Notes under the pieces: generated by a model
The model's database searches: none
The model's input: only the letters and a program-made list of their open reading frames with translations
Told to the model about the DNA's origin: nothing
Position numbers and translations under genes: made by a program
In this document: positions 12,824-17,677 of the stretch, piece after piece
How positions within the stretch are numbered: the first letter of the stretch is position 1
How the letters are laid out: every line of letters begins with the position of its first letter
Assembly (NCBI RefSeq): GCF_900113605.1
Contig: NZ_FOPY01000001.1
Coordinates: 317,669 to 381,668, forward strand
From: Modicisalibacter xianhensis
GTDB taxonomy: Bacteria; Pseudomonadota; Gammaproteobacteria; Pseudomonadales; Halomonadaceae
Length of the DNA: 64,000 nucleotides
Direction: 5' to 3'

Positions 12824-12900
12824 GCCCCCATAGCTCAGCTGGATAGAGCGTCCCCCTCCTAAGGGGAAGGTCTCAGGTTCGAATCCTGATGGGGGCACCA
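12824..12900 (+). tRNA. tRNA-Arg (anticodon CCU)
   Basis: 77 bases including the encoded CCA. Acceptor stem GCCCCCA pairs with TGGGGGC (12890-12896), discriminator A, then CCA. The D arm contains AGCTCAGCTGGATAGAGC. The anticodon stem TCCCC/GGGGA holds the loop CTCCTAA, giving anticodon CCT, which reads AGG. The T arm is TCAGGTTCGAATCCTGA. It is a single tRNA. The 250 bases after it hold no gene I can support, and I see no repeat of its 3' end within the window that would mark an integrated element. Confidence 0.97.
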
Positions 12901-16465: not shown

Positions 16466-16711
16466 ATGCATAAATCGTTTGCGCTCGTCACCACGTGCGG
16501 CATCGCCATTGCCGCCAGCACCACGGCGCTTACCTTCCCCGAGAAACAGCCGCTGCCCGTCAACCCTGACCAGTTGACTCCCCAGCAGCAACAGTACTGC
16601 AGGGATGTGGCACTGTGGTACAGGGAAGAGATGTTGGATATCCAGGTTCGGCAACGCCAGGGCAGGCCCGATACTCACGGCACCTACATGCAGTGGTGCA
16701 CGAGCCGTTAG
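16466..16711 (+). CDS. Small exported protein with two cysteines
   Basis: 81 residues. A signal peptide is evident (MHKSFALVTTCGIAIAAS then TTALT), so the mature product is about 58 residues and periplasmic or surface-located. The mature part is Gln/Pro-rich (DQLTPQQQQY) and has two Cys, one after QQQQY and one in MQWCTSR near the C-terminus, which could form a disulfide. I recognise no family. A terminator hairpin follows 31 bases after the stop. Confidence 0.6.
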   Translation: MHKSFALVTTCGIAIAASTTALTFPEKQPLPVNPDQLTPQQQQYCRDVALWYREEMLDIQVRQRQGRPDTHGTYMQWCTSR

Positions 16712-16742
16712 GCACGTTCTTCTCGCAATCCTTCATGAAAAA

Positions 16743-16761
16743 GCCCTGCACAGAGCAGGGC
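16743..16761 (+). terminator. Terminator after the 81-residue exported protein
   Basis: GCCCTGC and GCAGGGC form a 7-bp stem with an ACAGA loop. It is preceded by AAAAA and followed by ATAATC, so it could work in both directions. From here to 17257 (nearly 500 bases) there is no protein gene I can support; the stretch holds the small RNA and the GacA-like box listed next. Confidence 0.6.
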
Positions 16762-16906
16762 ATAATCACGTGACGCGGCTAATCAGACGAAACCCAAAGA
16801 CAGGCACGAGTCATTCGAGGCGTCACTCACCGGTACGGCAAGGCAGGTAACGTTCATGGAGAAATAATCCGTTACTTCTCGTTGCGTGCCCTCGCTCCGG
16901 CAAACC

Positions 16907-17055
16907 AAAAAAACAGCCCGACCACAAGGGTCGAGCTGCATAGCGCTGCGTATCCTTGCTTCCTTCACAGGCATCCTGCCCGTGCATCCTTGGCGCATGA
17001 GCCATCCATGTGCTCGTCTTCCTTGCTAGGGCTTCCTGCCCAATGACACTAAGGA
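16907..17055 (-). ncRNA. Candidate CsrB/RsmZ-family regulatory RNA (sequesters CsrA/RsmA)
   Basis: The minus strand reads as a GGA-rich structured RNA of about 150 bases ending in a textbook terminator (AGCTCGACC-CTTGT-GGTCGGGCT then seven Ts). Seven GGA triplets occur, all in an ANGGA or AGGA setting. Three sit in hairpin loops: GGGC-AGGAA-GCCC (17041-17029), a GAGC...CA-TGGA-TG...GCTC hairpin (17015-16999), and a 7-bp stem CACGGGC-AGGAT-GCCTGTG (16984-16966). This is how CsrB, RsmY and RsmZ bind CsrA/RsmA. The 5' end is uncertain: a TATGAG box at 17067-17062 suggests about 17055; an alternative TATACA at 17093-17088 suggests about 17081 and adds an eighth GGA. Such RNAs bind and remove CsrA/RsmA from target mRNAs under GacS/GacA control. 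Confidence 0.75.
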
Positions 17056-17100
17056 TGGCAGCTCATAGCATTCATTGCAGTAATCCATGTATATGGCGTT

Positions 17101-17118
17101 TGTAGGAGATCGCTGACG
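17101..17118. promoter_or_regulatory. GacA/UvrY-like binding box upstream of the candidate CsrB/RsmZ RNA
   Basis: TGTAGGAGATCGCTGACG matches the palindromic consensus TGTAAGAGATCTCTTACA, recalled for csrB/rsm promoters, at 14 of 18 positions. Its centre lies about 55 bases upstream of the favoured RNA start, the distance usual for GacA upstream activating sites in Pseudomonas rsm promoters. Confidence 0.6.
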
Positions 17119-17257
17119 TCTTTTGTGAGACATCACGGTGGGCCTCGTCGAAGCCAGTCATCCTGAACACATCGGGCTATTGCAACGAGCGTTGAGCCAG
17201 AAAGACCTTCTGCCATTACACTGTGTTGTCTGACCTTGGCAACGACGGGAGATCAGC

Positions 17258-17677
17258 ATGAGCGATTTCGACAGATTGATCAGGAATCTGGCCCGGGCCG
17301 GTGCACTGGCTGCCCGAGCAAGACAAGGCGACAAGCAAGTCATCGATGAACTTATCGACTCCCTGCAGGCCTATGTGGGGGCCAGCGCCGAAACCTACGA
17401 AGGCGAAGCCTCTACCAGGCAGGAGCAGGAGCCGGCACAGCCCGAGGAAAGGCCGAATGCCGGCATCGACAAGACCATTGACGGCTACCGGGCCACCAAG
17501 GAGGCCATGGCAGCGATTATCGACAAGCATATGCTGGCGGCATTCGAAGAGATCGAATCCCTGTACGGCGCGACACCAACCGATGTGACGCTCCGGATCG
17601 ATGCGCAACAACCACTTGAGAGTAACTACCCGAATGGCAGGTATGCCGGAAGCGACGTGCGACTAGGCGGCGATTAA
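17258..17677 (+). CDS. Hypothetical protein, 139 residues
   Basis: The ATG has GGGAGA seven bases upstream. Residues 1-45 are helical and amphipathic (DRLIRNLARAGALAARARQGDKQVIDEL), residues 46-70 are an acidic Glu/Gln/Pro linker, and residues 72-105 form another helix (TIDGYRATKEAMAAIIDKHMLAAFEEIESLYG). There is no signal peptide or membrane span. No family recognised. It precedes another small gene by 160 bases on the same strand. Confidence 0.65.
   Translation: MSDFDRLIRNLARAGALAARARQGDKQVIDELIDSLQAYVGASAETYEGEASTRQEQEPAQPEERPNAGIDKTIDGYRATKEAMAAIIDKHMLAAFEEIESLYGATPTDVTLRIDAQQPLESNYPNGRYAGSDVRLGGD

Follow-up and report, generated by a model that had tools for sequence, protein, structure and literature searches.

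A predicted multicopy CsrA-sponge RNA of the Csr/Rsm kind in Modicisalibacter xianhensis

We analysed a window of 64,000 nucleotides from the salt-loving bacterium Modicisalibacter xianhensis and found that the minus strand at 16907–17047 very probably encodes a CsrA-sponge RNA of the Csr/Rsm kind. Judged by covariance-model matching, it is one of about 15 predicted related copies in this genome. Most likely it represents a GacA-driven CsrA-sponge RNA from a subfamily that is absent from Rfam and has expanded beyond nine copies. We favour this reading because the GGA hairpins covary, GacA-type boxes lie upstream, gacA and csrA are present, counterparts are collinear in other species, and the copies are many. 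For RNAs of this known kind, the set is most likely unusually large, the previously reported maximum that we found being nine, in Azotobacter.

The RNA gene and its predicted fold

The RNA is a match of the covariance model R1 (G000:C19:334575-334715, minus strand; 144.6 bits, E = 3.3e-43), a score to be read with the fact that the window sequence was itself in the training set. R1 was built from alignment A1, which comprises 24 of 30 loci. The features of the locus are as follows.

16907–17047, minus strand: predicted CsrB/Rsm-type small RNA, model positions 1–145 (5′ end estimated, 3′ end at the T run)
17029–17041, minus strand: hairpin H1, GGGC-AGGAA-GCCC, loop with GGA, in the lowest-energy fold
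17020–17022, minus strand: GGA between H1 and H2, from the sequence
16999–17015, minus strand: hairpin H2, GAGC-ACATGGATG-GCTC, loop with GGA, supported by the alignment
16966–16984, minus strand: hairpin H3, CACGGGC-AGGAT-GCCTGTG, seven pairs, loop with GGA, in the lowest-energy fold
16989–16987, 16963–16961 and 16955–16953, minus strand: other GGA outside the hairpins, from the sequence
16913–16939, minus strand: intrinsic terminator stem-loop, followed by a run of seven Ts to 16907
17101–17118, minus strand: GacA-type box CGTCAGCGATCTCCTACA, 9/12, beginning 71 nt ahead of the RNA model start
17081–17092, minus strand: site of the second palindrome TAACCNNGGTTA, here in the degenerate form ATACATGGATTA (6/10)
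17258–17677, plus strand: neighbouring ORF of 139 aa, transcribed away from the RNA
16466–16711, plus strand: neighbouring ORF of 81 aa, facing the RNA

The initial annotation had described seven GGA on the minus strand, and these are present between about 17047 and 16907, three in hairpins H1–H3 and four outside, 8–18 nt apart. The terminator with seven Ts (stem at 16939–16913) and the 7-bp stem carrying AGGAT, which is H3, can also be read directly from the sequence. The claim of three GGA-loop hairpins needs a qualification: H1 and H3 appear in the lowest-energy fold, but H2, with the GGA at 17007–17005, is absent from that fold of the window copy alone and finds its support in the alignment. 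At least seven GGA per 149 nt occur in 0.6% of 149-nt segments of the 64-kb sequence, both strands counted. The minus strand from 17055 to 16907 also has five ANGGA, for which the corresponding figure is 0.11% of segments, taken one every 5 bases. In the predicted fold of 17053–16907, four of the seven GGA have their first or second G in hairpin loops, while base shuffles (n = 300) give a mean of 0.6 and none reaches four. Two of the seven are partly paired in the lowest-energy fold. The seven GGA alone are less striking (13 of 300 shuffles), and the overall folding energy is unexceptional (z = −1.69, on a stretch that includes some promoter).

The absence of a reading frame that would explain the stretch was confirmed. 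Two minus-strand ORFs of at least 60 aa cross it (71 aa, 16783–16998; 60 aa, 16823–17005); both extend through the terminator, and among the 24 aligned relatives there are length differences not divisible by three. The 139-aa and 81-aa neighbouring ORFs have no Pfam or NCBIfam match. Judged from sequence alone, this is a free-standing intergenic RNA gene with a Rho-independent terminator, as is characteristic of the CsrA-sponge class, and the several GGA, part of them in hairpin loops, are those of the same class. The 5′ end is likely at about 17047–17044, as estimated from the −10-like hexamers across the copies.

Covariation was evaluated in a second alignment, A2, which was made from 64 loci in which R1 matched at E ≤ 1e-10 and comprises 84 sequences, 76 of them distinct. 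Standard pairs make up 96.1% of its 1856 cells, and both sides change in 22 of 25 pairs. Every pair of the GGA hairpins changes on both sides somewhere: five of five in H1 (91.6% of cells paired), four of four in H2 (95.0%) and seven of seven in H3 (97.9%). The terminator, helix 4 of this alignment, has 97.7% of cells paired. The covariation score is 0.486, compared with 0.209 for column shuffles (0/500) and at most 0.112 with the partners slid. Both controls flatter the score, since the sequences are related to one another and their alignment had been fitted to the structure; the gap is still wide. In A1, H2 and H3 have fully or almost invariant GGA on stems that vary, and the same constancy is seen for the G columns of the GGA at 17020–17022 and for the columns of 16989–16987 and 16955–16953. 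The GGA at 16963–16961 is not conserved. Loops that keep GGA on changing stems are the pattern that would be expected of a CsrA-binding RNA.

To which RNA family does it belong? At the gathering score, Rfam gave nothing for the RNA, and the sole match in the window is a tRNA at 12824–12897 (plus strand). At a permissive threshold, the best match within 16600–17400 is RsmY (RF00195), over the whole model at 17050–16913, with 21.1 bits and E = 0.0075 (E = 0.46 in a larger search), short of the gathering score of 57 bits. For CsrB (RF00018), a tandem copy on contig C27 scores 35.2 bits, short of 71 bits. Since no family's gathering score is reached by this RNA or its siblings, it belongs to no Rfam family by the curators' rule. 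The class layout on which the earlier RsmZ/CsrB label was based is present, but membership in an Rfam family is not. The remark that simple searches miss such RNAs proved apt, in that the CsrB and RsmY models recommended for checking give sub-threshold matches only, RsmY being the best in the stretch. RsmY of Pseudomonas has a similar length (model of 121 positions), with GGA in and between hairpins and a terminator, but differs by the low score here, by the roughly 15 copies and by the second palindrome in the −35 region. CsrB/RsmB has the same function class, but its model has 356 positions. An upstream palindrome has been noted for rsmX, rsmY and rsmZ (PMC2375449). Matches to RyhB, Mu-gpT-DE, toxic-sRNA and anti-hemB near the site (E 0.6–7.5) look like terminators or chance. 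No match was found in plasmids by blastn with 17260–16880, nor in viral contigs with an exact 24-letter core pattern, which is a narrow test.

Copies, promoters and their spread

A DNA search of 14 genomes of the genus (among them Halomonas sp. EAR18, G009) gave matches in seven; this genome has six matching places, and another genome has 12. With R1, this genome has 15 copies at E ≤ 1e-6, among 150 of 1874 candidates scored, and these contain 4–8 GGA each. Fourteen score 54–145 bits, two of them overlapping as a tandem fusion on C27, and the fifteenth has 34 bits (E = 8.5e-8). Seven matches of the weaker tail were inspected; one, at C21:58200, is a different, CsrB-like RNA, and the other six are unconvincing. 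For the other genomes, 122 candidates were scored at the same threshold. Modicisalibacter luteus DSM 23508 has 19 copies (two pairs overlap as tandem fusions), Halomonas sp. McH1-25 has 13, and the other 11 genomes of the genus have 8, 7, 6, 4, 4, 1, 1, 1, 0, 0 and 0. Seven genomes of another genus, g20, picked for their high counts, have 7–11 each. At E ≤ 0.001, with 15 candidates per genome scored, R1 has matches in 129 of the 201 family genomes sampled and in 17 of 24 genera; in 21 of these 129, no match is better than E = 1e-6. In 244 genomes of the order, the matches outside the family are all weak, the best with 45 bits.

Several siblings per genome are known from other bacteria. Azotobacter vinelandii has multicopy, RsmA-binding, GacA-dependent RNAs, RsmZ1-7 and RsmY1-2 (PMC7366521, PMC4824345), but these are nine, as against 15 here and 19 in M. 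luteus, and in another bacterial family; the 2016 Azotobacter paper names RsmZ1-7 and one RsmY (PMC4824345). Pseudomonas syringae has seven (RsmX1-5, RsmY and RsmZ; PMC7366521) and Vibrio tasmaniensis four, CsrB1-4; in Vibrio, which has two to four CsrB copies, csrB4 arose by duplication (PMC6262261). In the open-licence literature searched on Halomonas, Modicisalibacter, Oceanospirillales and multicopy Rsm RNAs, we found neither the present family nor more than nine copies reported. For Halomonas anticariensis, Gac/Rsm-controlled traits include quorum sensing, exopolysaccharide and biofilm, and a table in a 2020 review gives the Gac/Rsm sponge RNAs as unknown (PMC7366521). CsrB goes unmentioned in the main text of a 2026 preprint on modelled CsrA binding in Halomonas hydrothermalis (PMC12889724). 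The RNA defined by R1 may be the missing sponge piece for much of the family, because R1 matches most of the genomes searched there.

M. luteus and McH1-25 have collinear counterparts of the locus of the window copy, and in the tree this copy groups with their counterparts (support 99/97). The block at 16737–17111 is 84.4% identical to M. luteus, compared with 74–80% for five neighbouring blocks, while two blocks exceed it (303 nt, 92.7%; 83 nt, 86.7%). The loci compared within this genome have the RNA and promoter in common but not the wider flanks, with the exceptions of a cluster on contig C30 and of a CRP/FNR-type gene beside two copies. Many copies in the tree group with those of other species rather than with own-genome ones, and there are also pairs within genomes (L029 1466 with L072 in this genome, G000; L006 with L012 in G012). 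Many copies would then be old paralogues and not a recent burst, because the window copy is collinear across species and own-genome copies lack common wider flanks; some later duplications inside genomes probably also occurred.

The promoters were surveyed in 71 upstream regions from several genomes, with positions counted from the R1 model start. As the GacA-box consensus for scoring, we assumed TGTAAGN6CTTACA. A box with at least 9 of 12 matches is found in 42 of the 71 regions, compared with 6.9% of base shuffles, and 37 of these 42 lie at two fixed positions about two helical turns apart (27 start at −66 to −72, 10 at −91 to −94). The other 29 copies have no box at this threshold within 200 nt. 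An 18-nt palindrome is reported for UvrY. The second palindrome, TAACCNNGGTTA, is present with at least 8 of 10 matches in 54 regions (shuffles, 3.1%), at −40 to −46 in 51 of the 54 and at −44 or −45 in 41. The fixed position of this motif is the fairer evidence, because the motif was read off the same sequences. The exact TAACCYRGGTTA has a single occurrence in the genome, in front of a sponge copy. In 34 of 70 regions, the TATAAT-like hexamer with the most matches begins at −10 or −9, usually matching at 3 or 4 of 6 positions, in a count made without a control. With this position, the start would fall near +1 to +4 of the model and the second palindrome near −41. The region around −41 is where class II activators, CRP/FNR among them, bind. 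Fnr at −41 together with the FixJ-family regulator NarL is cited in one article (PMC4682653).

The window copy has its GacA-type box at a position used in front of many copies. This upstream palindrome for GacA/UvrY is a moderate match, one that 6.9% of shuffles reach too. Many siblings have stronger promoter signals: with a box of 9/12, a palindrome of 6/10 and a −10 that is poor by eye, this copy may be weaker than the others.

Four sponge copies lie within 3.1 kb on C30 (G000:C30:5247-8343; L105, L071, L068, L075, L079), interspersed with SRAP (SOS-associated peptidase) and CRP/FNR-type genes, and a second SRAP paralogue is just upstream. The regulator gene there, of CRP/FNR type by Pfam (L105:5225-6364), adjoins a sponge copy, and so does a related regulator gene on C31 (L111:6340-7215; 65% DNA identity). 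The products of these two genes are candidates for the TAACCNNGGTTA-binding protein.

GacA, a candidate kinase and the csrA genes

The partners of an RNA of the sponge class occur in the same genome, which has gacA and two csrA genes. GacA matches the equivalog NF007018 (220 aa; 290.5 bits, cut-off 280) and is encoded directly upstream of uvrC. Together with the covarying GGA-loop hairpins, the GacA-type boxes and the csrA genes, the position of gacA beside uvrC supports the CsrB/Rsm identity first proposed. A BarA/GacS-like hybrid kinase, a 908-aa frame (G000:C17:181993-184182, L128), has 631 bits, below the BarA cut-off of 890. The sensor domain sCache_4 (PF09984), detected in the E. coli control, was not found in this genome, and the input signal of the kinase may differ from that of E. 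coli BarA.

In the family, csrA is present in 200 of 201 genomes and is nearly always single. Within the genus, this genome has two csrA genes, M. luteus and McH1-25 have three each, and the other 11 genomes have one. The three genomes with extra csrA are also the richest in copies (15, 19 and 13, compared with at most 8). One shared ancestor could explain this link, and the three genomes may be one clade. A strict relation between csrA number and copy number fails outside the genus. There, six genomes of the family have extra csrA (G034, G035, G040, G100, G137 and G195); G035 has 8 copies, G034 two weak matches, and the other four none, while the seven g20 genomes reach their counts despite one csrA. 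At the extra csrA loci of the three genomes (L107:7510-7734, L108:7170-8069 and L109), a divergent sponge copy lies about 100–165 nt away (G000 C28:327894-328041; G003, M. luteus, C12:20917-21069; G008, McH1-25, C23:226838-226985). The CsrA paralogue of this genome retains, by eye, L4 and R44, which are presumably RNA-contacting residues.

Proposed mechanism, alternatives and related RNAs

In the mechanism that we propose, GacA, which is the response regulator in the Gac two-component system, would bind the box, whose centre lies about 60 bp upstream of the start, and turn on an RNA of about 140 nt, probably helped by another activator that acts at the −35 region. The RNA would work as a sponge for CsrA (RsmA), its seven GGA sites, three in loops and four outside hairpins, binding CsrA dimers so that CsrA-repressed mRNAs are freed. 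With about 15 sibling genes scattered through the genome, many promoters would together set the dose of sponge. The analysis shows the sequence, the covarying structure, the copy number, the synteny, the gacA and csrA genes and the boxes at fixed positions, whereas transcription, control by GacA, binding of CsrA and an effect of dosage are what we infer. Against this reading count the Rfam scores, all short of the gathering score, the weaker promoter signals of the window copy, its lowest-energy fold, which lacks H2 and has two GGA partly paired, the 29 copies without a box, and the kinase match below its cut-off in a genome in which PF09984 was not found. A more specific proposal, which we put forward tentatively and with some doubt, is that three Modicisalibacter species have made of the Gac/Rsm switch a dispersed array of 13–19 sponge genes that has grown with extra csrA and whose typical promoter has two inputs, GacA at about −64/−86 and, at about −41 on TAACCNNGGTTA, another activator, perhaps a CRP/FNR-type regulator like those whose genes adjoin two copies. 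If this were true, how much CsrA is free would depend on the number of open gates. The 13–19 siblings in three species offer a natural test of why sponge RNAs multiply, whether for dose, for extra inputs or for matching extra CsrA.

Is the window copy itself active? It could be a decayed relic, with the work done by other siblings, and the 9/12 box, the degenerate palindrome and the poor −10 would fit that. We consider it unlikely, since all structural parts and the seven GGA are present, the R1 score is the third-highest among the matches listed (R1 being trained on this copy), and the locus is kept in three species with an identity to M. luteus above five neighbouring blocks and below two. 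A different function for the whole family, regulation of the Hfq type in which the loops would base-pair with mRNAs and no protein would be sponged, seems quite improbable to us. The GGA loops could pair with pyrimidine-rich sequence, and LhrC acts by pairing. LhrC of Listeria is another multicopy sRNA family (PMC4132741). However, 4–8 GGA per RNA, covarying hairpins and GacA-type boxes are the layout of a sponge. For an RNA that acts by pairing, one seed is enough.

Many dispersed copies in one genome, together with a cluster and tandem pairs, might also suggest a structured intergenic repeat (REP/BIME-like or a miniature element) that has its GGA and terminator by chance. This is scarcely credible in view of the loops, which keep GGA while the stems change, and of the boxes at fixed upstream distances. 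Moreover, what the own-genome copies compared have in common is the RNA and promoter and not the wider flanks, the C30 cluster and one gene type excepted, and many copies, including that of the window, group across species, although some pair within a genome. A CsrA-sponge RNA of the Csr/Rsm kind is the reading that we retain.

Tandem overlapping copies are found at G000:C27:19495-19761 (L070/L077) and at G003:C32:6697-6964. Taken as one RNA, the pair on C27 aligns with the CsrB model from end to end (E = 3.5e-6), which suggests a possible route from a short Rsm-type RNA to a CsrB-type RNA. A separate, longer CsrB-like RNA lies at G000:C21:58169-58405 (L119:4170-4406). It has DNA-similar stretches in 3 of 14 genomes, namely this one, M. 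luteus and McH1-25, in a search that diverged relatives would escape. Its Rfam CsrB score is 29 bits, and there are 12 GGA in the 260 nt folded.
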